Source of the DNA: Solirubrum puertoriconensis
GTDB taxonomy: Bacteria; Bacteroidota; Bacteroidia; Cytophagales; Hymenobacteraceae
NCBI RefSeq assembly: GCF_001483135.1
Contig: NZ_LNAL01000006.1
Coordinates: 868,003-932,002 of the forward strand
DNA: 64,000 nt
Direction: 5' to 3'
The translations under genes were made by a program, and so were the position numbers. The notes below the pieces were generated by a model that saw only the letters and a list, made by a program, of their open reading frames with translations, ran no database searches and was not told the origin of the DNA. Every line of letters begins with the position of its first letter. The first letter of the stretch is position 1. Shown here one piece after another: positions 44,563 through 56,601 of the stretch.

Positions 44563-45594
44563 TTAAATCTCCTCGTGGCCGGCTTCGTCCAGCTCGCGAA
44601 TCAGCTGGCGAAGGTTCTCCGGGTCTTGCACGGCTTTCTGCACTAAGTCCAGGTACTCAGCTTCGCCGCGTAGGCTGCGCTTTACTTGTCGCAACTCGGC
44701 TTCCTGTTTTTTGCCGGTACCCATAAAGGCGTTCCGGTCGCCGAACTTTAGTTGTTGCAGACGCAGCTTTAGCTCCGTTTGCTGTTGCTGCAGCGCCCGG
44801 GTGTAGCGCATCAGCAGCTCATCGGATTCGGCGTCGGAGTCGCCTTGGCGGTGCTCGGCCAGGAGCTGAAGCAGGGCGTAGAGGTCGTCGGCTTCGTAGG
44901 CGCGGGTGATGCGCTGCATGCGTTCGGTTTTCTGGCGGGCCAGCTCCGGGTCGCGCTCCAGATCGGGGTGGTTGGCGCGGGCCAGCTGGCGGTATACGGC
45001 TTTGGTACCGGCTTGCAGGCGCTTCTGGTCGGCCGCGAGTGCTCGGGCAGCAGCTTCCTGCTCGCGTTCTTGCTTTGATTTGCGCTTGCCGCGCTGGTGC
45101 GCGTGGTGCTCGGCGTGGTCTTGCCAAGCGTCGGGCGCGGTCTTGCGCTGCTCTTCCGAAGCTGTAGGCTTGGGTTCCGCTGCGCGTTGCTGCGGGGCGT
45201 AACGGCGGATGAGTTCGGCTACGTCTTCGCCGAAACGGTTCTGCAATGTAAGCGCATTGCGCAGCAGCAGCTCCTCGATGCGCTGCTCTTCCAGGCGGCT
45301 GAAGTAGCCGGTGGTAAGCGCGGCTTCCAGGGGTTCAAACAACGAGCGGCGGGCGGCTACCACGGCATCGGCCAGCGGGCCTACCTGGCGCCAGTACTTG
45401 TTTTTAGCTTCGCGTTGGGCCTGCTCCAGCTCCTGCACTTGGTTGCGCAGGTTTTCTACATCCTGCACGGCCTGCCGAAATGCCTGCTGCGCCGGGGTGC
45501 CGGTGGGTTCGGGGGCCTGACCGTGCCGGCCTACCTCGCGCTGGGTTTTGGGCGTGTGGCGGGCATCAAACTCTTCAAACTCGGGTAGGGGCAT
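44563..45594 (-). CDS. J-domain protein with coiled-coil body
   Basis: 343 residues from MPLPEFEEF. Helical N-terminal two thirds; a J-like segment near residue 200-245 with VYRQLARANHPDLERDPE holding the HPD tripeptide and a following helix III (RMQRITRAYEADDLYALL), then a helical tail. It lacks the Gly/Phe and zinc regions of DnaJ, so it is a specialised Hsp70 co-chaperone if the HPD works. The start overlaps the end of the upstream deacetylase by about 20 bases, implying coupled translation. Confidence 0.75.
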   Translation of the reverse strand: MPLPEFEEFDARHTPKTQREVGRHGQAPEPTGTPAQQAFRQAVQDVENLRNQVQELEQAQREAKNKYWRQVGPLADAVVAARRSLFEPLEAALTTGYFSRLEEQRIEELLLRNALTLQNRFGEDVAELIRRYAPQQRAAEPKPTASEEQRKTAPDAWQDHAEHHAHQRGKRKSKQEREQEAAARALAADQKRLQAGTKAVYRQLARANHPDLERDPELARQKTERMQRITRAYEADDLYALLQLLAEHRQGDSDAESDELLMRYTRALQQQQTELKLRLQQLKFGDRNAFMGTGKKQEAELRQVKRSLRGEAEYLDLVQKAVQDPENLRQLIRELDEAGHEEI

Positions 45595-46549
45595 GGACGT
45601 TGGCAGCGGTAATGGGGGACGAAGCAGCGGGCAAAGGTCGGCAAGAAGCGGCGCCCCACAGCTCGTAGGCCACGGCAAAGGTGTTGCAGTGGGCATTCAC
45701 GATGTCGGCAGTACGCTCGGAGTAGCCGCCGCCCATGCTCACGGCCACCGGCAAGCCCAGGCGGTGGCACAGGCCAAGCACGTACTCATCGCGTTGCCGA
45801 CAACCGGCGGGAGTAAGGGCCAGCTTGCCGAGTTTATCGGTAGCCAGCACGTCCACCCCGGCCTGGTAGAAGATAAAATCTGGCTGCACGCGCTCGATGA
45901 GGCCCGGCAGCACCGCGTGCAGCTGCCCTAGGTAAGCAGCGTCGTCTGTACCTAGGGGCAGCTCAATGTCGAGGTCCGATTGCTCCTTGCGCAGCGGGTA
46001 GTTGGCGCCGGCGTGCATGGAGAAGGTAAACACCCGTGGCTCGTGCCGGAAGATGGCAGCCGTGCCGTCGCCTTGGTGTACATCGAGGTCGACAACCAGC
46101 ACCTGCCGCGCCAGGCCGTGGTGTAGCAGGTGGGCGGCGCCGATGGCAATGTCGTTGAGCACGCAAAACCCTTCGCCGCGGTCGGCAAAGGCGTGGTGGG
46201 TGCCGCCGGCGCAGTTCAGGGCCACGCCGTCGCGCAGGGCGCGTAGCGCCGATTGCAGCGTTCCTGCCGACGATGACAAAGAGCGCAGCACCAGCTGCTC
46301 GCTCTGCGGCAACCCCAGGCGGCGCACCTCGGCAGGGGAGAGCTGCAGGTCGCGCACCTTGTGCCAGTATTCTGTTGTGTGCACGCGCAGCACGTCTTCT
46401 TCGGCGCACAGGCCGGGGTCGTAAAAGTCTTCGGGCGGCGCAATACCCTGCCATAGCAGCTGTTCCCGAATCAGCTCGTACTTGGCAATAGGAAAGCGGT
46501 GGCCCTGGGGTAGCGCAATGGTGTAGCGGTCGGAGGTAGCGAGGCAGGG
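45575..46549 (-). CDS. Histone-deacetylase-superfamily protein (acetoin/acetyl-lysine deacetylase-like)
   Basis: 324 residues from MPCLATSDRY. Arginase/deacetylase-fold motifs: GGTHHAF near residue 118 (paired His), VLVVDLDVHQGDGT near 157 (zinc Asp and His), QAGVDVLATDKLGKL near 240, and GGGYSERT near 283. Bacterial members deacetylate small molecules or proteins. The last 20 bases overlap the J-domain gene. Confidence 0.9.
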   Translation of the reverse strand, partial: PCLATSDRYTIALPQGHRFPIAKYELIREQLLWQGIAPPEDFYDPGLCAEEDVLRVHTTEYWHKVRDLQLSPAEVRRLGLPQSEQLVLRSLSSSAGTLQSALRALRDGVALNCAGGTHHAFADRGEGFCVLNDIAIGAAHLLHHGLARQVLVVDLDVHQGDGTAAIFRHEPRVFTFSMHAGANYPLRKEQSDLDIELPLGTDDAAYLGQLHAVLPGLIERVQPDFIFYQAGVDVLATDKLGKLALTPAGCRQRDEYVLGLCHRLGLPVAVSMGGGYSERTADIVNAHCNTFAVAYELWGAASCRPLPAASSPITAANVHAPTRV

Positions 46550-46700
46550 CATGCGAGTGAGCCAATGAGACAATTCTAGAACGCAAAGCTGCTCGTTTCA
46601 GATGAGAGCAGTCGAGCGGTAGCGCCGAGCAGTACGCGTTAGGAAACAGTCGCCCGCGCCAACATCTTTACGGCAGTACATCAATCCTTATCCGGCTTTT

Positions 46701-47201
46701 ATGAAACCCGCTTCTTATCTGACTACAGCCGCCTTGTTTGCTACCCTGGGCGTAGCGGCGCAAGCAAAGGAACCCACGCTCGATTACAAAGCCCTGCGCA
46801 TCGACGGTTTGCTGTTCTACACTTCCAAGGCCAGCATTCTTAAAACCTACGGCAAGCCAACCAAAGTAACCGAACCCAATTATGAGTGCGGTTTTCACGC
46901 CGCTCAGCAGGGTAAACGGTATTATTTGCTGCACTACCCCGGCCTGAAGTTTATCGGTAATGCGGCCGAAGGCTACGTGCTGGAGGAAGTTGACCTAGGG
47001 CCGCGGTACCCGCAGCGCACCATCTCGTACCGCGGCAAGCGCCTTTCGCGCCTCACCACCACCGCCGATTTTCAGAAGCTGTTTGGAGTGAAGGTAGAAG
47101 GCAACGAGAAGGGCCTGTTCAACACCAATGCCGATGATGCCTTCCGCTTCCATTTTGTGGGCGGGCGCCTGGTGAAAATTGATTATTGGTCGCCGTGCTA
47201 A
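46701..47201 (+). CDS. Hypothetical exported protein (166 aa)
   Basis: Signal peptide (MKPASYLTTAALFATLGVAAQA), then a mixed domain with two Cys (ECGFH; final YWSPC) that could form a disulfide. Phrases ILKTYGKPTKV and LEEVDLGPRYP occur in exported Bacteroidota proteins of unknown function. Divergent from the deacetylase pair. Confidence 0.65.
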   Translation: MKPASYLTTAALFATLGVAAQAKEPTLDYKALRIDGLLFYTSKASILKTYGKPTKVTEPNYECGFHAAQQGKRYYLLHYPGLKFIGNAAEGYVLEEVDLGPRYPQRTISYRGKRLSRLTTTADFQKLFGVKVEGNEKGLFNTNADDAFRFHFVGGRLVKIDYWSPC

Positions 47202-47345
47202 TCGAAACGAATTACCTAGGTTGTGGTATTGCGATATGCGCTATTCATTGAAATGAAATTGTAAATGAGTTGTGTTAGTTGGAGAAGTCTTGCGAATGGA
47301 GAATTGCTGCATAGTGGAAAAAAATATTTTTTGAAAAATAATTGC

Positions 47346-47373
47346 TTTGCAGAAAATAACCTTTCTATCTTTG
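47346..47373 (+). promoter_or_regulatory. Bacteroidota-type promoter
   Basis: TTTG (47346-47349), 16-base spacer, TATCTTTG (47366-47373, matches TAnnTTTG). The spacer is slightly short of the usual 19. Immediately upstream is an AT-rich tract. It would start a transcript near 47380 that meets the terminator at 47539-47575. Confidence 0.6.
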
Positions 47374-47380
47374 ACCCGTT

Positions 47381-47577
47381 CAAAGCACAAAACACAAACG
47401 CCTTACCCGACTTCACTCGTCATGCGCTGCCACTTCAACCAATACCTAGGGATGCCAACCAGCTCGGTGAATAAGATCCAGCCGGGGTTCGGCGCGCACG
47501 CAGCGAGATGAGGTTTTAGAGATAGAAGCCATCCATTGCAAAACGCCCGAACCCCGCCAGGTTCGGGCGTTTTGCTT
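47381..47577 (+). ncRNA. Candidate short transcript upstream of Ro60
   Basis: A promoter-like sequence and a strong terminator bracket about 195 bases that contain no normal-length gene. A 29-codon frame from ATG 47422 (MRCHFNQYLGMPTSSVNK...) is the only coding option. The 5' end can fold (CTTTGA/TCAAAG). Could be a small RNA, a leader, or a short-peptide gene; no Rfam family is recognised. Confidence 0.35.
47539..47575 (+). terminator. Rho-independent terminator
   Basis: Perfect 15-bp stem GCAAAACGCCCGAAC / GTTCGGGCGTTTTGC with a 7-base loop and a T-rich end. Confidence 0.9.
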
Positions 47578-47869
47578 TCCCAATCAGTTCCTTAACTGCT
47601 CACGCTCATGCTGTCGAATCAATACACCCAGCTTCTAGCCCTGGCCCATGCACCAGCCGCCACAATGCTTTGGTATTTCGGCAGCGTAGCAGATATACAG
47701 GCTGATTTTGGCTGGCGAAAACGGGTTAGCCCCTGCTGGCAATATCCGGGCCTATAGGTAACCACCTAGGGTATTTTTCGAGGTATTTATTTCTTGAGCA
47801 TCGCTGATAATAATTAGCGGTTTCGAAAACTATTGCCTTTGCAAAACGGTAATTATTTTACTTGATAAC

Positions 47870-47894
47870 GGCAATAAATTCCGTAGGAATTGCC
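47870..47894 (+). other. Hairpin in the Ro60 5' region
   Basis: GGCAA(TAAA)TTCC and GGAATTGCC pair across a GTA loop, 35 bases before the Ro60 ATG. The apex reads TTCCGTAGG, echoing the CCGTAG core of the downstream Y-like units. A poor -7 candidate TGCCTTTG lies at 47834-47841. The rest of 47600-47929 shows no gene. Confidence 0.35.
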
Positions 47895-47929
47895 GAACGA
47901 ATTTCTACACCCTTTACGCAACGGTAACT

Positions 47930-49459
47930 ATGCGCTTCAACTTTACTTTCCGCAAAAACAAGCCGGCGCAAGTGATAAACCACGAGGGCGCGCAGGCCTT
48001 CCAACTCACCCCGGCTTTGGAGCTGTACGCCGCCGTGGCAACCGCTGCGCTGAACGACCAGTTCTACGAAAATGCCGGTACCCGCCTGCAACGCTTGCGC
48101 GAGCTGGTGGCCCAAAACGATCCGCGCTTCGTGGCCCAAATGGCGGTGTACGCCCGGGAGCGGCTGTACCTGCGCTCGGTGCCGCTGGTGTTGGCCGTAG
48201 AGCTGGCCCAGGTACACCGCGGCGACGACCTCGTGAGCCGCATGGTAGCCCGCGTGGTGCAGCGCGCCGACGAAATAACCGAACTGCTGGCTTTCTACGC
48301 CTTGGCCAATCAGCGGCAAGGCCCGAAAACGCTTAACCGTCTCTCGAAGCAGCTGCAGAAGGGTTTGGCCCTGGCCTTCAACCGCTTCGATGGCTACCAG
48401 CTGGCCAAGTACGACCGCGCCGGCCAGGTGCGCCTGCGCGATGCCTTGTTCCTGGTGCACCCCACCGCCAAAAGCACCGAGCAGCAAGCCTTGTTCGACC
48501 AGCTGGTGCGCGGCGAGCTGCCCACGCCCTACACCTGGGAAACGGAGCTCTCGGCCCTAGGTCAGGAGTCGTTTGCTACGGCTGAGGAGCGGCAGGCAGC
48601 CTTCCGCAGCAAGTGGGAGGAGCTGATTGCGAGTGGCAAGCTGGGCTATATGGCCTTGCTGCGCAACCTGCGCAACATCCTCGAAGCCGAAGTGTCGGCG
48701 GCGGCGATGGAGCAGGTGTGCACCAGCCTTTCGGACCGCTTTGCCGTGGCGCGCAGCAAGCAGCTGCCGTTCCGCTACCTGGCCGCTTACCGCGAGCTGC
48801 TGCAGGTGCGCTCGGGCCACGTGCCCCGGGTGCTCGAAGCCTTGGAAACAGCTATCGGACACTCCATCCAAAACCTGCGCGGCTTTGAGGCCAACACGCG
48901 GGTGGTGGTGGCCTGCGACGTGTCGGGCTCGATGCAGCAGCCGGTATCGGCGCGCAGCAAAGTGCAGCTCTACGACGTGGGCCTGGTGCTGGGTATGTTG
49001 CTGCAGAGCCGCTGCGCCAACGTGGTAGCCGGCATGTTCGGCGACCGGTGGAAGCGCATTGCGCTGCCCCGCAACCAGGTGCTCAGCAACGTGCAGGAGT
49101 TCTACCGCCGCGAAGGCGAGGTAGGCTACAGCACCAACGGCCACTTGGTGGTGCGCGAGCTGCGGCAACAGCGCGAGGTGGTAGACAAGGTGATGCTTTT
49201 CACCGACTGCCAGCTCTGGGACAGCCACAACCACGGCGCCACCTTGGCGCAGGAATGGGCCGAGTACCGCCGCTCGGTGGCACCTCAAGCCCGCCTGTAC
49301 CTCTTCGACCTGGCTGGCCACGGCAACACGCCCGTGGAGGTACGCCACAACGATGGCGTGGCCCTCATTGCGGGCTGGTCGGATAAGGTGTTCGACGTGC
49401 TGCAGGCGCTGGAAAATGGCGGCTCTGCCTTGTCGGAAATTGAGCAGATCGAGCTGTAG
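47930..49459 (+). CDS. rsr: Ro60/TROVE-domain RNA-binding protein (Rsr-like)
   Basis: 509 residues. TROVE HEAT-repeat ring at about 20-320 (LELYAAVATAALNDQFYE, LREVVAQNDPRFVAQMAVYARERLYLRSVPLVLAVEL pattern), then a von Willebrand A-like domain with MIDAS DVSGSM near 330, GMFGD near 367 and LFTDCQLWD near 423. Ro proteins bind misfolded and Y RNAs; in Deinococcus and Salmonella they work with Y RNAs and nucleases or lie beside rtcBA. The start ATG follows a possible leader hairpin. The Y-RNA-like array begins 216 bases after its stop, and rtcB follows the array. Confidence 0.92.
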   Translation: MRFNFTFRKNKPAQVINHEGAQAFQLTPALELYAAVATAALNDQFYENAGTRLQRLRELVAQNDPRFVAQMAVYARERLYLRSVPLVLAVELAQVHRGDDLVSRMVARVVQRADEITELLAFYALANQRQGPKTLNRLSKQLQKGLALAFNRFDGYQLAKYDRAGQVRLRDALFLVHPTAKSTEQQALFDQLVRGELPTPYTWETELSALGQESFATAEERQAAFRSKWEELIASGKLGYMALLRNLRNILEAEVSAAAMEQVCTSLSDRFAVARSKQLPFRYLAAYRELLQVRSGHVPRVLEALETAIGHSIQNLRGFEANTRVVVACDVSGSMQQPVSARSKVQLYDVGLVLGMLLQSRCANVVAGMFGDRWKRIALPRNQVLSNVQEFYRREGEVGYSTNGHLVVRELRQQREVVDKVMLFTDCQLWDSHNHGATLAQEWAEYRRSVAPQARLYLFDLAGHGNTPVEVRHNDGVALIAGWSDKVFDVLQALENGGSALSEIEQIEL

Positions 49460-49547
49460 GCCTGCCTGGCAGGCAATCGGCTAGCAACTACAACTACCAT
49501 CATCTGTGCCCAATTCTTACCCACAATTCTGCTAAACCAAAGCTGCC

Positions 49548-49577
49548 GGGGCGGCGGCTAATCCGAGCCGCTGCCCC
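49548..49577 (+). other. Strong hairpin after Ro60
   Basis: GGGGCGGCGGCT and AGCCGCTGCCCC form a 12-bp stem with an AATCCG loop. CTTTTT follows only 15 bases later, so termination is possible but not typical. It may separate the Ro60 mRNA from the RNA array. Confidence 0.5.
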
Positions 49578-49635
49578 ATCATCCCGGACACCTTTTTAAT
49601 TCTCTACTGCCATGAATTGCAGATAACAACATCAA

Positions 49636-49658
49636 GCATCAGCCCTGGTAGCTGATGC
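49636..49658 (+). other. D-arm-like hairpin preceding the array
   Basis: GCATCAGC / GCTGATGC, eight perfect pairs, with loop CCTGGTA, like a D-loop with GG. It lies just before unit 1, whose own D-arm position is degenerate. CGGCCAA (49667-49673) just after it can pair with TTGGCCG inside unit 1 as an alternative fold. Confidence 0.4.
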
Positions 49659-49675
49659 CTCCGCCGCGGCCAATC

Positions 49676-49827
49676 AACTTGCAAGGTGCCGTAGACGGGC
49701 GTTACTTCGTGGTATAGTTTTCGGGTGCGGCGCAATGGTCGCCGCATCAACGCGGGTTCGAATCCCGTCCTTGGCCGGTGGCCAGGTGGTGAAAACATTT
49801 CGCTTGTCGCCTGTAGCCCTTGCAGTT
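49676..49827 (+). ncRNA. Y-RNA-like unit 1 with tRNA-like module
   Basis: Closing helix AACTTGCAAGG (49676-49686) with CCTTGCAGTT (49818-49827), one bulged T. 5' core TGCCGTAG. Second helix ACGGGCG (49695-49701) with CGCTTGT (49801-49807), two G-U pairs. 3' core CGCCTGTAGC. TTACTTCG follows the second helix strand. Inside: a hairpin TGCGGCG/CGCCGCA with loop CAATGGT, resembling an anticodon arm; a T-arm CGGG-TTCGAAT-CCCG (49753-49767); and an acceptor-like helix CCTTGGCC/GGCCAGG. The D-arm is reduced to an unpaired A-rich stretch. Confidence 0.8.
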
Positions 49828-49852
49828 GGTTGGGCCAGTGGATACTAGCTTG

Positions 49853-50000
49853 CTGAACGGGTGCCGTAGCTCGGCCATCCTTCGTACCATTCAAACAGAG
49901 TCTTGTCGCGGGTTCGACTCCCGAAGTGGCACCCTAGGGTGCTGCGCATACGTGAACGGTAGGGCAGACTCGTTGGCCGGGCACCAGTTGCCCCGTTTAG
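49853..50000 (+). ncRNA. Y-RNA-like unit 2 with tRNA-like module
   Basis: Closing helix CTGAACGGG (49853-49861) with CCCGTTTAG (49992-50000), nine pairs. 5' core TGCCGTAG; second helix CTCGGCC (49870-49876) with GGCCGGG (49975-49981); ATCCTTCG follows; 3' core CACCAGTTGC. T-arm CGGG-TTCGACT-CCCG (49909-49923). Acceptor-like helix GTGGCACC (49926-49933) with GGTGCTGC (49938-49945) closed by the loop CTAG. D-arm degenerate but keeps AACGGTAGGGC. Alternatively GGGTGCC at the unit start could pair with GGCACCC, a competing tRNA-like fold. Confidence 0.85.
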
Positions 50001-50010
50001 CCTAAACCCT

Positions 50011-50151
50011 TGTTGGGTGCCGTAGCCGAGCCATACTTCGACTTTAGTTCGCCGTGTCGCGGGTTCGATTCCCGCTCGCCTGCCCTAGGTGGCTGGCGGT
50101 AGCTCAGTTGGTAGAGCAGGATATGTAGGCTTGGCGCCTGTTGCCCCAACA
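50011..50151 (+). ncRNA. Y-RNA-like unit 3 with intact permuted tRNA-like module
   Basis: Best-preserved unit. Closing helix TGTTGGG (50011-50017) with CCCAACA (50145-50151). 5' core TGCCGTAG; second helix CCGAGCC (50026-50032) with GGCTTGG (50128-50134); ATACTTCG follows; 3' core CGCCTGTTGC. T-arm GCGGG-TTCGATT-CCCGC (50059-50075), acceptor-like helix TCGCCTGCC (50076-50084) with GGCTGGCGG (50091-50099) closed by CTAGGT, then TA and a canonical D-arm GCTC-AGTTGGTA-GAGC (50102-50117). The order T-arm, acceptor, D-arm is a circular permutation of tRNA. CTTTTTCTT follows and may be a terminator or 3' U-tail. Confidence 0.9.
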
Positions 50152-50163
50152 CTTTTTCTTAAT

Positions 50164-50311
50164 GCTGACCGGGTGCCGTAGGACGGCGTTACTTCGGTAA
50201 GATCTAACGATCATGCAGGTTCAAATCCTGCAGCTTGCCGCCTAGGTGGCAAGTGGCGCACTCGCCTGCGGGTGTGCCGGCAACGCCTGCCGCTTGTTGC
50301 CCTTGGTCAGC
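50164..50311 (+). ncRNA. Y-RNA-like unit 4 with tRNA-like module
   Basis: Closing helix GCTGACC (50164-50170) with GGTCAGC (50305-50311), extended by GGG/CCC. 5' core TGCCGTAG; second helix region GACGGCG (50182-50188) with CGCCTGC (50284-50290), four pairs plus mismatches, the weakest of the seven; TTACTTCG follows; 3' core CGCTTGTTGC. T-arm GCAGG-TTCAAAT-CCTGC (50215-50231). Acceptor-like helix CTTGCC (50234-50239) with GGCAAG (50248-50253), loop GCCTAGGT. D-arm-like hairpin GGCGCAC/GTGTGCC (50255-50278). Confidence 0.85.
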
Positions 50312-50321
50312 AGCTTGTTTA

Positions 50322-50392
50322 CCTGTTTGGTGCCGTAGCACAGCCCTACTTCGCAACCTGTAATAGGCTGTGCGGCTGGTTGCCCACGCAGG
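50322..50392 (+). ncRNA. Compact Y-RNA-like unit 5
   Basis: 71 nt without a tRNA-like module. Closing helix CCTG/CAGG and TGG/CCA around a small internal loop; 5' core TGCCGTAG; second helix CACAGCC (50339-50345) with GGCTGTG (50366-50372), seven perfect Watson-Crick pairs; CTACTTCG starts the 20-base apical loop; 3' core CGGCTGGTTGC. Confidence 0.85.
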
Positions 50393-50395
50393 TTT

Positions 50396-50481
50396 GGTGC
50401 CGCCAAAGGTGTCGTTGGGTAGCCTTACTTCGACTGAACACGCGCAACAGGCTACTCGCATTGTAACCCTTCGGCTGCACC
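50396..50481 (+). ncRNA. Compact Y-RNA-like unit 6 (divergent core)
   Basis: Closing helix GGTGC (50396-50400) with GCACC (50477-50481), continued by AAGG/CCTT. The 5' core reads TGTCGTTG instead of TGCCGTAG; second helix GGTAGCC (50418-50424) with GGCTACT (50450-50456); TTACTTCG follows; 3' core CGCATTGTAAC. The core changes make this the most divergent unit, yet both helices are kept. Confidence 0.75.
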
Positions 50482-50485
50482 GCCC

Positions 50486-50575
50486 AACCCGCCCGATGCC
50501 GTAGGCCAGCGTTCCTTCGACCTGTTAAGTCGCCTTTGGCCAAACGCTGGCCGCTTGTTGCTCGGGCTTTGGGTT
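50486..50575 (+). ncRNA. Compact Y-RNA-like unit 7
   Basis: Closing helix AACCC-GCCCGA (50486-50496) with TCGGGC-TTT-GGGTT (50562-50575), eleven pairs and a TTT bulge; 5' core TGCCGTAG; second helix GCCAGCG (50505-50511) with CGCTGGC (50545-50551), seven perfect pairs; TTCCTTCG follows; 3' core CGCTTGTTGC. The 33-base apical loop has no T- or D-arm. Confidence 0.85.
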
Positions 50576-50590
50576 TATGCACGTCAAAAA

Positions 50591-50783
50591 CTCCCCTCCT
50601 CAGATGAGGAGGGGACGCCGCGCCGCAGGCGCGGCTGGGGTGGTTGACGGGCGTCCGCGCCACTTGCACGGCCTGCCTCTAAAACAGCCTTGTAGGGCTC
50701 AGCTATGCACGGCCTGCTAAGTGTAACCTCACCATCAACAACCCCGCCCTTCGGGCACCCCTCCTCATCTGAGGAGGGGAGTT
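50591..50783. repeat. Inverted pair of GAGGAGGGG elements between array and rtcB
   Basis: Forward copy 50591-50647 (spacer hairpin CGCGCCGCAGGCGCG) and reverse copy 50735-50783 (spacer CGCCCTTCGGGC). The 87 bases between contain the direct repeat TGCACGGCCTGC at 50665 and 50706. The repeats interrupt the array-rtcB interval but leave the rtcB start intact. Confidence 0.8.
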
Positions 50784-50809
50784 CGTTCTCACTTCACAAC
50801 ATCACTTTT

Positions 50810-52210
50810 ATGGCTAATCAATTACGCGGCAACGACCTTCGGCAGCTTGGCTTCCCCGAAGGGCGTGCCATCGGGCTGGCGCTGGCCCAACTGCAGCGCA
50901 AACACCTAAAACGCCTGTCGCAAACCGACCAGCTCGCCTTGCTGCAGGCCCTCATCCGCAACCCGCACAACTTCCTCACTGACCTCGACTGGAGCCACAC
51001 CGCCGCGGCGCTGTTGCCCCCGCCCAGCCGGCACATTGCCTTGGCCGAGCGCAAAGAGTACGTCACGTTTGGGGCCGAGTACATCGACCCCAGCGCCGTG
51101 CACCAGATGGAGGTAGCCATGAAGCTGCCCGTGACGGTAGGCGGCGCCCTTATGCCCGACGCCCACCACGGCTACGGCCTGCCCATCGGCGGCGTGCTGG
51201 CTACTGATAACGCGGTGATTCCGTATGCGGTGGGCGTCGACATCGGTTGCCGGATGGCCTTGTCCATCTTCGCGCTGCCGCCGCAGTACCTCACGCAGCG
51301 CGTGCAGGAGCTGAAGAATATCCTGCTCGCCAACACCAAATTCGGCAACCGCGACGTGTTCCGGCACGGGCAAAAGCTCGGGCACGAGGTGCTGGAGCGC
51401 GACGAGTTCAGCACGATTCCGTTTTTGCGTAACAAGCAGGAAACGGCCGCGGCGCAGATCGGTACCTCCGGCTCGGGCAACCACTTCGTGGAGTTCGGCT
51501 TCGTCGAAATCACCGACCCCGCCAACGAAATGGGCGTGCCCGTTGGCCAGTACCTAGGGCTGCTCTCGCACTCCGGCTCGCGCGGCCTGGGCGCTAGCGT
51601 GGCGCAGCACTACACCAAGCTCGCCAAGGATACCTGCCAGCTACCCGCCGAAGCGCAGCACCTAGCGTGGTTGTCCCTCGACTCGGAAGCGGGGCAGGAG
51701 TACTGGGCCGCCATGAACCTGGCCGGTGATTACGCCTCGGCTTGCCACCACCAGATTCATCAGCGCATTGCCCGCGCCCTAGGTGAGCGGCCCCTGGCTA
51801 AGGTGGAGAACCACCACAACTTTGCCTGGAAGGAGCGCCTCGCCGATGGCCGTGAGGTTATCGTGCACCGCAAGGGCGCCACGCCGGCCGGCAAAGGCGT
51901 GCTGGGCGTGATTCCGGGTTCGATGACGGCGCCCGGGTTCATTGTGCGCGGTCGGGGAGTGGCCGAGTCGCTGGCGTCGGCTTCGCACGGGGCTGGCCGA
52001 CTGATGTCGCGTACCCGGGCCAAGCAGGAGCTGGGCGAAGCCGACGTGCGCCGCCACCTGCAGCAGCACGGCGTGGAGCTCATCGGCGGCGGTGTCGACG
52101 AAGCGCCGCAGGCGTATAAGGACATCTTTTCCGTGATGGAAAGCCAGCACGATTTGGTGAATGTGCTCGGCACCTTCACGCCGAAAATCGTGCGCATGGA
52201 TGGGGCCTGA
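50810..52210 (+). CDS. rtcB: RtcB 3'-5' RNA ligase (copy 1)
   Basis: 466 residues from MANQLRGNDLRQLGF; the frame extends upstream but into the repeat. RtcB joins 2',3'-cyclic phosphate or 3'-phosphate ends to 5'-OH ends with GTP and Mn2+. Seen: metal-binding VDIGCRM near 143, SGSGNHFVE near 222, LSHSGSRGLG, the ENHHNFAW His, HRKGATPAGKG, and SHGAGR near 391 whose His is guanylylated. All key residues are present. No rtcA cyclase or rtcR regulator is nearby. Last gene of the Ro60-array-rtcB unit; strong terminator follows. Confidence 0.95.
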   Translation: MANQLRGNDLRQLGFPEGRAIGLALAQLQRKHLKRLSQTDQLALLQALIRNPHNFLTDLDWSHTAAALLPPPSRHIALAERKEYVTFGAEYIDPSAVHQMEVAMKLPVTVGGALMPDAHHGYGLPIGGVLATDNAVIPYAVGVDIGCRMALSIFALPPQYLTQRVQELKNILLANTKFGNRDVFRHGQKLGHEVLERDEFSTIPFLRNKQETAAAQIGTSGSGNHFVEFGFVEITDPANEMGVPVGQYLGLLSHSGSRGLGASVAQHYTKLAKDTCQLPAEAQHLAWLSLDSEAGQEYWAAMNLAGDYASACHHQIHQRIARALGERPLAKVENHHNFAWKERLADGREVIVHRKGATPAGKGVLGVIPGSMTAPGFIVRGRGVAESLASASHGAGRLMSRTRAKQELGEADVRRHLQQHGVELIGGGVDEAPQAYKDIFSVMESQHDLVNVLGTFTPKIVRMDGA

Positions 52211-52257
52211 TCGGCCTAAGTGCCGCCTAGGTGCCAAGGCCTTTCTGAGCCGAAAAC

Positions 52258-52304
52258 AAACAAGCGGGTCCGACGAACAGCCGTTCGTCGGACCCGCTTT
52301 TGTT
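52258..52304. terminator. Terminator between rtcB and the DUF4394 gene
   Basis: Perfect long stem AACAAGCGGGTCCGACGAAC / GTTCGTCGGACCCGCTTTT, A/T-flanked on both sides, serving the convergent genes. Confidence 0.9.
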
Positions 52305-52323
52305 GTATGCACCTAGGGCGCTG

Positions 52324-54291
52324 CTATTCCACGAACAGGCGCTTGGTCAGCTGGCCTTCGGCGGTGTTTACTTGCACCAGGTACAGGCCGGTTTTTACGC
52401 CCGCCAACGAAATGGCTGCCGGCTGCGCACCACGCGCCGTGAGGGTTTGCTGGCTAACCTCCTGGCCCAGCGCATTCAGCACCCGTACGGTGAGAGGCTG
52501 CTTGGTGAGTTCGGTGGGCAGTACCAGGTTGGCCGTGCCTTGGGCCGGGTTGGGGTACAGCGACACTTGCGCGGCCAGTACGCTGGGCAACGTAGCCGTG
52601 GGCAAGCCAGCCTGCGAGTAGGCCGCCATGCCGCTGATGTTGATGCCGCCGCCAACGGGGCCCACCAGCGTAGCGGCGCCCGTAGTCAGGTTCACGGAGT
52701 AGAGGTTATCGACGGTGCTGGTGCCGGTGCTGGCCGCCAACAGGGCCTGGTTGGTGGTACCGTCGGTGATGATGTCGAACTCGACGGCGTTGGTGGTGCG
52801 GTTCACGGTGATGCCCGAGCTGCCCACGGTGTTCAGCACGCCGTCGTTGGGCGGGGTTTGGGTCACCAGCACGTTCAGGGCGTCGTCGTAATTGAAGAGC
52901 GTAGTGCTAGTGGCGTTGCTCAGGTTGTTGGTGTAGGCCGAAGCCGAAACCGACGGGGTGGCGCTGGCATTGGCATCGGTAGCGGCGTAGTTCAGCTGCC
53001 CATCGGTGGCCGCAATGGTACCGTCGTTGGGGTTGAGGCGGAAGTTGCCGCGGCTGGTACTGGTTACGCGAATGCGGTCGACTGTCGGGTTGAAGTCAAA
53101 ACCGATGCGGTCGGTAGCAGCCCCTAGGTTGAGGGTGAGGGCCGAGCCCACGGCAGTTGCGGCGCCGGTGGTCAGGTTGAGGCGGTAGAGCTGCGCCGTG
53201 GTGTTGGCGGCGCTGTACCCTAGGGCAAACAGCTGGTTGGTAGCGGGGCGGAAATCAACCCCTACCAAAGCTTGCCCGGCCGTAAGGCCCGTGATGGGCG
53301 TGAGCGTGCGGATGGTACCGGGCAGGGCCGAATCAAATGACAACAGGTTGGTGCCCGATACGGCGTAAATCAGGCGGCCCGTAAGCGTGGCCGGCACCGT
53401 GCGGTCGATGGCCACGGCAATGTCGGTAACCATGCTGGTGGCCGTGCCCACGGCACCCGCCGCGGTAGCCGCGCCGGTGGTCAGGTTTACGGTGTAGAGC
53501 GTGGTGCCCGTGGAGGTACCCGCCATTGTTACCACCAGGTAGGCCGTATTGGTTTGGTTGGTGGCGTTGTAAGCAATGTCGAGGTCGGCGCTCTGGGTGG
53601 CGCCGCTGGTGGTTACCCCTAAGGCGCCAATGGTGTTGAGGGTGCCGTCGTTAGGCGGTACCTGCGATACCAGGCGGCTGTTCACCTCATCCACGTTGTA
53701 GAGCGTGGTGCTGCCCGTGCCGATGTAGCTGTTGGTGTAAGCCGAGGCGCCTACGCCGGGTGTTTGGCCCGAGTTGGCATCGGCGGGGGCGTAAGTAAGT
53801 TGCCCGTCGGTAGCGGCTAGGGAGCCATCATTCGGGTTGAGGCGGAAGTTGCCGCGGTTGGTGCTCGTGACGCGAATGCGGTCGACTGTCGGGTTGAAGT
53901 CGAAACCGATGCGGTCGGTAGCGCCGCCCAGGTTCAGCGTGAGGGCCGAGCCCACCGTAGTAGCGGCGCCGGTGCCCACGTTGATGCGGTAGAGCTGCGC
54001 CGTGGTGGTGGCCGGGTTGTAGCCCAGGGCAAACAGCTCGCCGGTGTTGGGGCGCACATCCATGCCTACAATGGTTTGGCCGGCGGCTACGCCCGTAATG
54101 GCCGCAGTAGCCGTGAGCGTGCCCGGGGCCGAGGCCTGGAAGGTAACTAGGTTAGTGCCCGATAGGCCGTAAATGGTTTGGGCCGCGGCGGGCGCTAAGG
54201 CAGCCAGGCTCAGCACCGAGCCTAGCAGGGAGGCGCGGCGCAAACGGCGAGCAATCGGACTAATAGTGGGCAACAGTACTGGTGTTTGCAT
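52324..54291 (-). CDS. Secreted protein with two DUF4394 domains and T9SS sorting
   Basis: 655 residues: signal peptide, two DUF4394 repeats (about 40-290 and 305-560) sharing IYGLSGTNLxxFxxxxPG, DRIGFDFNPTVDRIRV and GNFRLNPNDG, then a T9SS C-terminal domain (LYPNPAQGTANLVLP ... GLYLVQVNTAEGQLTKRLFVE). DUF4394 likely forms a beta-propeller. It would be cell-surface or secreted. It separates the two rtcB genes and has no obvious link to RNA repair. Confidence 0.88.
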   Translation of the reverse strand: MQTPVLLPTISPIARRLRRASLLGSVLSLAALAPAAAQTIYGLSGTNLVTFQASAPGTLTATAAITGVAAGQTIVGMDVRPNTGELFALGYNPATTTAQLYRINVGTGAATTVGSALTLNLGGATDRIGFDFNPTVDRIRVTSTNRGNFRLNPNDGSLAATDGQLTYAPADANSGQTPGVGASAYTNSYIGTGSTTLYNVDEVNSRLVSQVPPNDGTLNTIGALGVTTSGATQSADLDIAYNATNQTNTAYLVVTMAGTSTGTTLYTVNLTTGAATAAGAVGTATSMVTDIAVAIDRTVPATLTGRLIYAVSGTNLLSFDSALPGTIRTLTPITGLTAGQALVGVDFRPATNQLFALGYSAANTTAQLYRLNLTTGAATAVGSALTLNLGAATDRIGFDFNPTVDRIRVTSTSRGNFRLNPNDGTIAATDGQLNYAATDANASATPSVSASAYTNNLSNATSTTLFNYDDALNVLVTQTPPNDGVLNTVGSSGITVNRTTNAVEFDIITDGTTNQALLAASTGTSTVDNLYSVNLTTGAATLVGPVGGGINISGMAAYSQAGLPTATLPSVLAAQVSLYPNPAQGTANLVLPTELTKQPLTVRVLNALGQEVSQQTLTARGAQPAAISLAGVKTGLYLVQVNTAEGQLTKRLFVE

Positions 54292-54490
54292 GGGATATGG
54301 TAAGAATGAAAATGGCGTGCAGCTACGCTGGCTTACTCAGCCAGTGATGTAGGAGCTACGCAGCGCCCGTGCCCGGCGGATTGCCAAAAGGCATTAAATC
54401 CACATTAAATATTTAAGATGGACTATACACAATCGGTTAAGCTGAGCTAAAAAGTGGATCAGATACTGCTCACCGCGAATAGACAAACTA

Positions 54491-55036
54491 CTAACTACTA
54501 GTGCGATAGATGATGATGGTCTTGCCGTCGCGAAGGAATCCTACAAACTTGTAGGGCCGGTAAATACTGGAATACGCCGCACTGCAGGTTAATTTCACAT
54601 CCACGCCGGGATTCACGTATTCGAACGTGTCGGAGTGGATAAAGAGAAATTTCGGGCTGCTCAAGGATTGAAACGTAGTATCGCGGCGAAGCCGGAGCAA
54701 CAAATTGGTGTAGTCGGCTGGTGCTAGCCTGATACGCGCACAAGCTGCATAAGCACCGTGTTGGTCGGGGTAGCTGGCATCCTTGCGTTGGATATCGGCC
54801 GAAGCCGGTAAGGGAACTCCGGTGATGCTGCGGAATTCGTCGTGGTAAAAAGCATCGTTGGGGTAAATGGCAAAGTGTACGCAGTAGCCAATGCCCGACA
54901 TCAGCAAGCCCGGCAGCAGAAGAGCTAACCGGCGGTTGCCTTTGCGGCGTTGCCAATGGTACAGCGCCCAACAAACAAGTACAATTGAGCCCACAAGCAG
55001 GAGGGCGCTGAACAAAAAGAGCAGGACTAATTCCAT
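54491..55036 (-). CDS. Hypothetical membrane-anchored protein (181 aa)
   Basis: Two N-terminal spans (VLLFLFSALLLVGSIVLVCWAL; LALLLPGLLMSGIGYCVHFA), then a soluble domain (FRSITGVPLPASADIQRKDASY, ending DGKTIIIYRTSS). An overlapping frame on the same strand is a shadow: its composition is Pro/Arg-rich. It is divergent from rtcB copy 2. No family recognised. Confidence 0.6.
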   Translation of the reverse strand: MELVLLFLFSALLLVGSIVLVCWALYHWQRRKGNRRLALLLPGLLMSGIGYCVHFAIYPNDAFYHDEFRSITGVPLPASADIQRKDASYPDQHGAYAACARIRLAPADYTNLLLRLRRDTTFQSLSSPKFLFIHSDTFEYVNPGVDVKLTCSAAYSSIYRPYKFVGFLRDGKTIIIYRTSS

Positions 55037-55164
55037 GGAGAGCCAAAAGTGTTTGCCTTCACTGCTTCAAAAGTATAGCAAGCTAGCTGACATCAAGTAG
55101 CGCAAACCGAAACCTAGAGATGAGCGAAGTCGGTAAACCCACTACCATCCTTCCCATCCGCATC

Positions 55165-56601
55165 ATGGCCAAAAACACGAATAAGCTGCACGGCAAAGAC
55201 CTGCGTCAACTCGGTTTCACCGACGACAAGCAGATCAGCCTGGCCCTCGACATACTCGACCAACGCGAGCTGCGCAAGCTCGATAAGGGCAGCGCCCTGG
55301 CGCTGCTGCGCGAAATAAAAGCCGACCCCTACAAGTACGTGCGCGACCAAACCTGGCGCCCCTTAGCCCAGGAGCTAGTGCCCCAACCCAGCCGCGACGT
55401 AAAGCTGAACCCCGAAATAAAAGACTACCGCCGCTACGGCGAAGCCTTCATCGAAGACGGTGCCCGCAAGCAGATGGACACCGCCATGCAGCTGCCCGTT
55501 TCCATCGACGGGGCCCTAATGCCCGATGCCCACCAAGGCTATGGCTTGCCCATCGGCGGCGTGCTGGCCGTGGATAATGCCGTAATACCCTACGGCGTGG
55601 GCATGGACATTGGCTGCCGCATGGCCTTGTCGGTGTTTGAGCTGCCGCCGCGCTACCTCGAGCAGCGCCGCGACGAGCTGAAAAAGCTGCTGCACAACCA
55701 CACCCGCTTCGGCAACAAAGAGGTGTTCAAGAACCCCGCCGACGACCCCGTGCTGGAGCGGCCCGAGTTCAAGGAAATAGCCGTGGCGCGGGGCAAACAC
55801 GAAGCCGCCGTAAAGCAGCTCGGCTCGTCGGGCTCGGGCAACCACTTTGTGGAGTGGGGCATTGTCGATATCACCGAGGAAGAAAACGACCTGAACTTGC
55901 CCCTAGGTCAGTACCTCGGGCTGCTCTCGCACAGTGGCTCGCGGGGCCTAGGTGCCGCCATTGCCCAACACTACACCAAGGTGGCCATGAACAAGTGCCC
56001 GCTGCCGCCCGAAGCGCGCTACCTCGCCTGGCTCGACCTCGACTCGGAGGAAGGGCAGGAGTACTGGCGCGCCATGAACCTGGCCGGCGACTACGCCTCG
56101 GCCTGCCACCACGACATCCACCGCCGCCTCAGCAAAGCCCTAGGTTACAACCCGCTTGCGCAGGTTGAGAACCACCACAACTTTGCCTGGAGGGAAACCT
56201 TAGCCGACGGCCGCGAAGCCATTGTGCACCGCAAAGGCGCCACGCCGGCTGGCAAGGGCGTATTGGGCATTATACCTGGCTCCATGACGGCCCCTGGCTT
56301 TATCGTGCGCGGCCGCGGCGAACGTGACTCTATTCAGTCGGCTTCGCACGGGGCGGGGCGGCGGCTTTCGCGCACGCAAGCCAAGCAGCAAGTAACCGAA
56401 GGCGAGCTGCGCCGGCTGCTGCGCGACCAAGGCGTGGAACTCATCGGTGGTGGGCTAGATGAGGCACCGATGGCTTACAAAGACATCCATCAGGTAATGG
56501 CACACCAGCGTGACTTAGTAGATGTGCTAGGCTCCTTTACGCCGCGCATTGTGCGCATGGATGCCGGCGGCTCGGGCAAAAGCAAGTACGGCGGCGAGTA
56601 G
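55165..56601 (+). CDS. rtcB: RtcB 3'-5' RNA ligase (copy 2)
   Basis: 478 residues from MAKNTNKLHGKDLRQLGF. Same motif set as copy 1 (MDIGCRM, SGSGNHFVEW, LSHSGSRGLG, ENHHNFAW, HRKGATPAGKG, SHGAGR), all intact, with a short Gly/Ser/Lys tail. The two copies are clearly related but differ throughout, so the duplication is not recent. Not adjacent to any Y-like unit; it has its own terminator. Substrate specialisation between copies is possible. Confidence 0.95.
   Translation: MAKNTNKLHGKDLRQLGFTDDKQISLALDILDQRELRKLDKGSALALLREIKADPYKYVRDQTWRPLAQELVPQPSRDVKLNPEIKDYRRYGEAFIEDGARKQMDTAMQLPVSIDGALMPDAHQGYGLPIGGVLAVDNAVIPYGVGMDIGCRMALSVFELPPRYLEQRRDELKKLLHNHTRFGNKEVFKNPADDPVLERPEFKEIAVARGKHEAAVKQLGSSGSGNHFVEWGIVDITEEENDLNLPLGQYLGLLSHSGSRGLGAAIAQHYTKVAMNKCPLPPEARYLAWLDLDSEEGQEYWRAMNLAGDYASACHHDIHRRLSKALGYNPLAQVENHHNFAWRETLADGREAIVHRKGATPAGKGVLGIIPGSMTAPGFIVRGRGERDSIQSASHGAGRRLSRTQAKQQVTEGELRRLLRDQGVELIGGGLDEAPMAYKDIHQVMAHQRDLVDVLGSFTPRIVRMDAGGSGKSKYGGE

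Follow-up and report, generated by a model that had tools for sequence, protein, structure and literature searches.

What might a single Ro60 protein do with a whole row of Y RNAs? The question is raised by a locus of Solirubrum puertoriconensis (Bacteroidota; Cytophagales; Hymenobacteraceae; contig NZ_LNAL01000006.1 of assembly GCF_001483135.1), whose plus strand carries, in order, rsr, encoding a Ro60/Rsr-like protein, seven Y RNA units (49681-50566) and the RNA ligase gene rtcB-1, followed 3 kb downstream by rtcB-2. Positions are those of the window, i.e., the whole 64,000-nucleotide stretch that we analyzed (contig positions 868,003 to 932,002, forward strand). By sequence comparison, the seven units are Y RNAs of the YrlA kind, in divergent form, and the long ones hold a tRNA-like module in circularly permuted order. 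A recurrent, ordered set of Y RNAs that copy different tRNAs makes the role of Y RNAs besides Ro60 tethering directly testable, by asking which protein recognizes which module. Such rows of tRNA look-alikes may connect Ro60 with the way cells handle or repair tRNAs that have been damaged.

Seven divergent Y RNAs between rsr and rtcB

The units are listed here with their scores under a covariance model, R1, and with cluster letters that denote unit types, obtained by clustering 431 units from loci of the family Hymenobacteraceae at a threshold that we set ourselves.

49681..49822, plus strand: Y RNA unit 1, cluster B; Ro stem, variable-arm-like hairpin, T-arm (49753-49767), capped acceptor-like hairpin, degenerate D-arm; R1 47.2 bits, E 4.6e-11
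49856..49996, plus strand: Y RNA unit 2, cluster E; Ro stem, T-arm (49909-49923), capped acceptor, atypical D-arm; R1 63.1 bits, E 1.8e-15
50012..50149, plus strand: Y RNA unit 3, cluster A, class I; Ro stem, T-arm (50059-50075), capped acceptor (50076-50099), D-arm (50102-50117); R1 125.8 bits (in the training set)
50168..50305, plus strand: Y RNA unit 4, cluster M; Ro stem, T-arm (50215-50231), capped acceptor, a different hairpin at the place of the D-arm; R1 59.7 bits, E 1.6e-14
50325..50388, plus strand: Y RNA unit 5, short; Ro stem with a small loop, without tRNA-like body; R1 44.6 bits, E 2.3e-10
50404..50472, plus strand: Y RNA unit 6, short, cluster D, TGTCGTTG variant; R1 30.5 bits, E 1.8e-6
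50491..50566, plus strand: Y RNA unit 7, short, cluster C; R1 47.6 bits, E 3.5e-11

A first-pass annotation, made from the DNA letters, had proposed tandem Y-RNA-like genes between rsr and rtcB that share Ro-stem-like cores and fall into two size classes, and each of these proposals was borne out. Seven units were recovered by both pattern and covariance model, with lengths of 138-142 nt for units 1-4 and 64-76 nt for units 5-7. Inside 49687-50519, the pattern TGCCGTAGNNNNGCNNTNCTTCG has six exact matches and one with two mismatches. When up to three mismatches were allowed, 13 matches were found in the 64 kb, compared to 0.98 expected from 100 shuffles, and the six exact matches of the array are the only ones in the genome (8 contigs, 4.80 Mb). 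R1 was built from 65 class I units, to which the window contributed unit 3 only; it detects all seven units at E values from 9.7e-33 to 1.8e-6, with the next match in the window at E 0.095, and all seven can be aligned to it.

The units are closely packed: 15 to 33 nt separate the model limits of neighbors, and the lower stems of units 1-5 can be extended outward, leaving 8 to 26 nt. Single-sequence folding gave z scores of -3.2 for unit 4, -2.4 for unit 7, and -1.2 to +0.2 for the others; taken alone, this is unconvincing, and the structural evidence is comparative. No tRNA gene was called in the array by ARAGORN, and nothing there exceeded the Rfam tRNA cut-off. The Rfam YrlA model (RF02553) scored unit 3 at 35.3 bits (E 9.9e-6), under its gathering cut-off of 69, and listed no match for the other window units. 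We therefore file the array as a divergent YrlA variant. The loci of 13 relatives likewise gave sub-threshold matches or none, and because the cut-off misses the arrays tested (the window and these 13 loci), such arrays are easy to overlook.

Long units contain a permuted tRNA body

The class I consensus was derived from 65 units of 48 loci, window unit 3 included, taken from the 103 that could be trimmed cleanly among 118 in the cluster. It begins with a lower stem, the GGUGCCGUAG / GUUGCC internal loop, the upper Ro stem, ACUUCG and a loop region, and then runs through a T-arm, a capped acceptor hairpin and a D-arm to the 3' strands. In this alignment, 96.6% of cells are paired, compared to 75.3% after shuffling, and its 390 double-change cells (104 when shuffled) were matched by 0 of 500 shuffles. 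The covariation is spread across the Ro stem, T-arm, acceptor and D-arm, both sides having changed in 23 of the 31 pairs, and helices 1-3 of the Ro stem have 95.6-96.9% of cells paired. Sliding the partners by 1-3 columns reduced pairing to 33-57%, a control biased in favor of the structure, which was drawn from the same alignment. The same architecture was observed in 19 Leu-like units and in 14 of 15 Ser-like units, one of the latter being omitted from the alignment.

On this comparative evidence, the long units contain a circularly permuted tRNA-like module consisting of T-arm, capped acceptor, and D-arm or its remnant. In the window, the permuted domain is complete in unit 3, has an altered or lost D-arm in units 1, 2 and 4, and is missing from units 5-7; across the family loci, 76 of the 312 units with a T-arm have a decayed D-arm or none. 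The first-pass interpretation, sound on the tandem genes, the size classes and the Ro-stem cores, had thus overlooked the tRNA mimicry of the long units.

Different units resemble different tRNAs

We compared the T-arm and D-arm sides of the 312 units separately, with the acceptor excluded, against the 39 distinct tRNAs of the window's genome; the resulting counts are inflated by kinship among units. Where the T side was Leu-like, the D side was Leu-like in 15 units, ambiguous in 2 and absent in 6, and in no case Ser-like or class I. Where the T side was class I, so was the D side in 123 units, the remainder being Leu (6), Ser (8), ambiguous (12) or without D-arm (35). Units with an ambiguous T side were distributed over D sides of Leu (8), Ser (7), class I (38), ambiguous (8) and none (31). 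All 19 units of cluster G were nearest to tRNA-Leu and all 15 of cluster H to tRNA-Ser; in both clusters, the D- and T-loops are strongly conserved and the acceptor stems change by compensation. For class I units, isotype calls scatter (Thr, Lys, Gly, His), and we made no assignment.

Outside the family, the agreement between T and D sides is weaker (167 units). Nine units have a Leu-like T side, three of them with a class I D side and six with no D-arm, and six units with a Leu-like D side have a T side that is ambiguous or class I. Single units in loci L187 and L192 nevertheless look Leu-like over both halves. Recent capture of a host tRNA was considered for the L192 unit (genome G153) and rejected: it is nearest to its own genome's tRNA-Leu(UAA), with only 24/42 and 22/27 identical positions in the halves, so that this unit, the one tested, is taken to be ancient or fast-diverged.

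Some units form anticodon-arm-like hairpins

In many units, a stem of at least 3 bp with a 7-nt loop can be formed directly 3' of ACUUC. The window has two such hairpins, in units 3 and 7; the other five units lack one.

50039-50051, plus strand: unit 3 anticodon-arm-like hairpin, 3-bp/7-nt, CGA-CTTTAGT-TCG
50518-50532, plus strand: unit 7 anticodon-arm-like hairpin, CGAC-CTGTTAA-GTCG, loop identical to that of the genome's tRNA-Asn(GUU); present in the minimum-free-energy fold

Across the family, 43 of 431 units have a loop identical to one of the anticodon loops in the window's genome, whereas 200 shuffles gave 0.2 such units on average and never more than 2; related units are among those counted, so that the effective sample is below 431. 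The loops concerned are CUUUUAA (Lys, 18), CUGUCAC (Asp, 14), CUGAAAA (Phe, 4), CUGUUAA (Asn, 4), UUGUGAU (His, 2) and UUUUGAU (Gln, 1).

We also tested for the hairpin at a fixed position, in units with a recognizable ACUUC. Class I units had it in 63 of 114 cases (19.9 in shuffles, maximum 29), with U33 and R37 together in 51 (2.4, maximum 7). In cluster C, it was present in 20 of 21 units (2.5 in shuffles) and U33/R37 in 14 (0.16), with 11 of the 32 cluster members falling outside the test, while in cluster D the hairpin count, 5 of 25, was not distinct from shuffles (1.7, maximum 6) and U33/R37 occurred in 4 (0.15). The class I hairpin stems change in compensation (GCA/TGC 29, CGA/TCG 14, GCG/CGC 8). 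Outside the family, only the U33/R37 signature is distinct, at 26 of 173 units versus 2.9 in shuffles (maximum 7). We infer that the hairpins may serve as functional anticodon mimics; the hairpin signal itself is statistical.

Arrays accompany Ro within the family and beyond

A Ro match was found in 69 of 150 family genomes, comprising 64 full-span loci (three with stops or a frameshift) and five remnants. Pattern units are present at all 64 full-span loci, with 3-11 per locus and a median of 7; these numbers come from a loose pattern that possibly admits false units at the upper end, and some stretches stop at contig ends. Seven packed units, described in the first-pass annotation as unusual, are thus the family median, and many other Bacteroidota loci also hold several. 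The order of unit types largely recurs across genera, roughly as B - J/F - E or G - A - H, M or P - A - D - C, of which many incomplete forms exist; for the window array, the order is B E A M Q D C. Cluster B, the type of window unit 1, has 52 members in family loci, and cluster D, that of unit 6, has 26. L016, the closest relative, whose Ro is 96% identical, yielded the four long units and no others.

When the 150 genomes were searched with R1, 118 had a match, of which 66 were at E <= 6.6e-12 and 52 between 3.6e-8 and 7.2e-6. Those with a strong match are 64 genomes with Ro and 2 with a Ro remnant. Six places with weak matches were inspected in five genomes, and all six were tandem tRNA pairs. 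G004, the one same-genus genome without Ro, had no R1 match. The expectation that a covariance model would find matches only beside rsr/rtcB held for rsr, strong matches occurring only with Ro or its remnant. At the remnants (L103-L107, in G059, G149, G086, G036 and G032, respectively), R1 found six units in G149, four in G036, two weak ones in G032, and none in G059 or G086. In 16 of 70 family loci, ARAGORN made calls within the array zone; these coincide with Y units and were excluded from tRNA counts. A second Ro, 36% identical, occurs in G145 (L102), with no pattern unit and one weak partial R1 match upstream.

In the order outside the family, 38 genomes have Ro (58 of 241 matching, minus 20 in the family). 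We examined 20 loci, all of which had an R1 match at E <= 0.01 and 19 at <= 1e-5, in some cases upstream of Ro. Among 80 named Ro loci, 28 outside Hymenobacter, Pontibacter and Rufibacter were searched, and every one had a best R1 match of 2.1e-11 or lower; they include Flavobacterium, Chitinophaga, Spirosoma and Sporocytophaga. Across the phylum, the Rfam YrlA model at E 0.001 gave matches, mostly weak, in 84 of 296 genomes; under stricter filters, it exceeded its cut-off in one of the 296, a genome that also has a tandem array.

In 13 of 48 loci outside the family (L264, L250, L252, L183, L255, L187, L192, L176, L177, L175, L181, L190 and L191), ARAGORN called tRNA genes no more than 15 nt away from Y RNAs, and in L264 (9661-11070) the two alternate. 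Some of these extra-family calls overlap Y units (L173, L183, L250, L255) and may be false, and some adjacent tRNAs are odd, such as a 76-nt tRNA-Leu in L264. At such loci, tRNA processing enzymes might free the ends of the Y RNAs.

Viral contigs (IMG/VR) yielded 231 Ro relatives, of which 80 were kept (L325-L404); R1 matches were found in 15 of 23 searched, and some of these contigs may be host fragments. A TROVE protein, of a kind described as working with a tRNA-like partner in cells, is reported from some jumbo phages (PMC7824862).

Protein genes of the locus and the link to RtcB

The protein genes of the locus are as follows.

47930..49459, plus strand: rsr, Ro60/Rsr-like protein, 509 aa; Pfam TROVE 99.4 bits, vWA_Ro60 37.7 bits
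50810..52210, plus strand: rtcB-1, RNA ligase; Pfam RtcB 281 bits
55165..56601, plus strand: rtcB-2, second RtcB paralogue; Pfam RtcB 272 bits

The rsr product has the TROVE ring and vWA domain that define Rsr/Ro60 proteins. In the PDB, it matches the TROVE chains 9l5y/9kop at 2e-29 and Deinococcus radiodurans Rsr (2nvo) at E 1e-4; against NCBIfam RNA-bind_Rsr, it reaches only 39 of 900 bits. The named Ro records closest to it are from Hymenobacter, with up to 86% identity. The start of rtcB-1 was set at 50810, at the N-terminus common to both RtcBs; the start in the list of open reading frames is 50705.

Of the 64 family loci, 53 have RtcB downstream. No RtcB was seen downstream at the remaining 11, the array-bearing Ro loci L090-L100, which belong to three sister genera (two of these stretches stop at a contig end). 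The first-pass annotation's "dedicated ligase" is only partly supported, since, outside the family, RtcB was seen in just 3 of 20 order-level loci, several of them on short stretches. A whole-genome search for the RTC family (PF01137) gave no RtcA match, with a positive Escherichia coli control, and the rtcA plus rtcB pairing of the RtcBA/RtcR repair operon is thus absent from this genome. No RtcR-like protein occurs among the eight proteins at 44563-56601 to which the Pfam scan was restricted, and PADLOC gave zero matches on five proteins.

Between the array and rtcB-1 lies a 26-nt perfect inverted repeat (50589-50783). This palindrome has 54 matches in the genome at no more than one mismatch (26 forward, 28 reverse), often paired some 90-250 bp apart, as in a mobile or REP-like repeat. 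Many relatives have a microbial-type PARG gene between rsr and the array (PF10021 in two proteins tested, TIGR02452 in one; L050:3150-3992, L080:3239-4090), and a similar N-terminus was seen by eye in open reading frames of 16 further family loci; the window has no such gene at the corresponding place. In several relatives, a PcfJ-like gene (PF14284; two tested) lies within or 3' of the array (L077:4334-5572, L083:4055-5362).

What the array may do

The reading that we prefer, and to which we give an even chance of being right, is that the Y RNA modules would act as adaptors presenting tRNA surfaces. The array would be co-transcribed and then cut into units; a single transcript is suggested because the spacers are too short for separate promoters and terminators. 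Each Y RNA would be held by Ro60 via its stem, leaving its module to expose the tRNA elbow, the acceptor and, in some units, an anticodon loop to tRNA-acting proteins. During tRNA damage, this could couple one Ro60 to a number of tRNA-handling enzymes or shield it from them, and RtcB, where linked, would reseal RNA that had been cut. In favor of this reading are the pattern and R1 matches, the covariation, the recurring order of unit types, the agreement of T and D sides in Leu-like units, the anticodon-loop hairpins, the way strong R1 matches track Ro, the short spacers, and the published findings on YrlA modification and on induction of the Salmonella operon. The "multi-client Ro ribonucleoprotein" of the first-pass annotation is plausible and gains support because the modules have diversified. 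We rank the adaptor reading above a pure tether and a decoy, the anatomy being common to all three.

Several observations weigh against this reading. The only near-complete tRNA-like body in the window is that of unit 3, and the Leu-like and Ser-like clusters are missing from its array. Among family units with a Ser-like T side, the D side is Ser-like in just 4, class I in 5, Leu-like in 0 and absent in 4; outside the family, the D side is Leu-like in 0 of the 9 units with a Leu-like T side. The 3-bp/7-nt hairpin outside the family, in 33 of 173 units, is not distinct from shuffles (22, maximum 36), and within it kinship among units reduces the effective sample behind the count of host-identical loops. 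RtcB is sparse at order level, and RtcA is lacking. In Salmonella, YrlA fragments reportedly went undetected upon tRNA damage (PMC7790460).

A simpler possibility, which we consider unlikely though still worth holding, is that these are RYPER-type tethers, with Y RNAs gating Ro60 and tethering it to PNPase, and with variation of the tRNA module reflecting drift. Tethering is described as the demonstrated role in Deinococcus (PMC7790460, PMC8394870), and the loss or decay of the D-arm in 76 of 312 units fits it. Drift, however, does not predict host-identical anticodon loops, and it sits poorly with unit types that recur in order across genera and with Leu/Ser D- and T-loops that stay strongly conserved while the acceptor stems compensate.

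We find it distinctly doubtful that the units are anticodon-nuclease decoys, whose hairpins and tRNA bodies would absorb nucleases or be cut by them and resealed by RtcB. The host-identical Lys, Asp, Phe, Asn, His and Gln loops speak for decoys. PrrC cuts tRNA-Lys, and colicin E5 cuts the Asp, Asn, His and Tyr tRNAs. Competitive inhibition of a nuclease by YrlA is one possibility raised by Hughes et al. (PMC7790460). Against decoys, 388 of the 431 units lack any host-identical loop, many hairpin stems are just 3-4 bp long, and RtcB is often unlinked. Still less credence goes to the idea that Bacteroidota Ro60 loci form a panel of permuted tRNA mimics, one per client tRNA or enzyme, acting as decoys or sensors that anticodon nucleases would cut and RtcB would reseal, i.e., a reusable shield of the tRNA pool.

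Two further explanations are very improbable. A cis-acting leader, in which the array is a long 5' region of the rtcB mRNA sensing uncharged or broken tRNA, fits the position between rsr and rtcB and the short spacers, but we reject it because arrays exist where no rtcB is seen (L090-L100 and 17 of 20 order-level loci, some on short stretches), and strong R1 matches track Ro. A decayed cluster of tRNA genes, or selfish repeats that derive from tRNAs, would agree with the tRNA genes packed beside Y RNAs in 13 of 48 extra-family loci but not with the lack of any ARAGORN tRNA in the window array, the covariation in class I units, or the confinement of strong R1 matches to genomes with Ro or its remnant. 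If the adaptor reading is true, Ro60, tRNA damage and RtcB repair would be linked in soil and water bacteria.

Comparison with known systems

In the permuted tRNA genes of algae and archaea, the 3' half of the tRNA precedes the 5' half. The units here share that order, but their acceptor is capped and their anticodon side is joined to the Ro stem, and nothing suggests processing to a functional tRNA. Animal Y RNAs, in which an internal loop is likewise taken to lie between a CCG.. 5' core and a CUUGU.. 3' core, differ in that the tRNA-like body and the packed array are features of the units described here.

A YrlA Y RNA beside rsr and rtcB is already known as a kind. Circular permutation is stated for the YrlA crystal structure 6CU1 (PMC11472068), a Y RNA is described as tethering Rsr to PNPase and YrlA as a substrate of tRNA-modifying enzymes (PMC8394870), and tRNAs cleaved in the anticodon loop are reported to induce the Salmonella rsr-yrlBA-rtcBA operon (PMC7790460). 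Apparently new, with priority not established, are the scale and order of the arrays, the modules that resemble tRNA-Leu and tRNA-Ser, the hairpins with anticodon loops and, in other Bacteroidota, the packing of tRNA genes among Y RNAs; among the matches listed, full-text literature searches showed no mention of long arrays, of mimics of class II tRNAs, of anticodon hairpins or of tRNA genes next to Y RNAs.

The closest known system is thus YrlA/YrlB (RF02553; Salmonella rsr-yrlBA-rtcBA; 6CU1), which likewise lies beside rsr and partly rtcB, has a Ro-type stem and, in its Rfam model, shows the same permuted order of T-arm, capped acceptor and D-arm. The Rfam consensus, however, runs CUAc straight into the closing stem, without the anticodon-arm-like hairpin of some units here, whereas the arrays described above pack up to about nine units of recurrent types, with modules that resemble Leu, Ser and other tRNAs.

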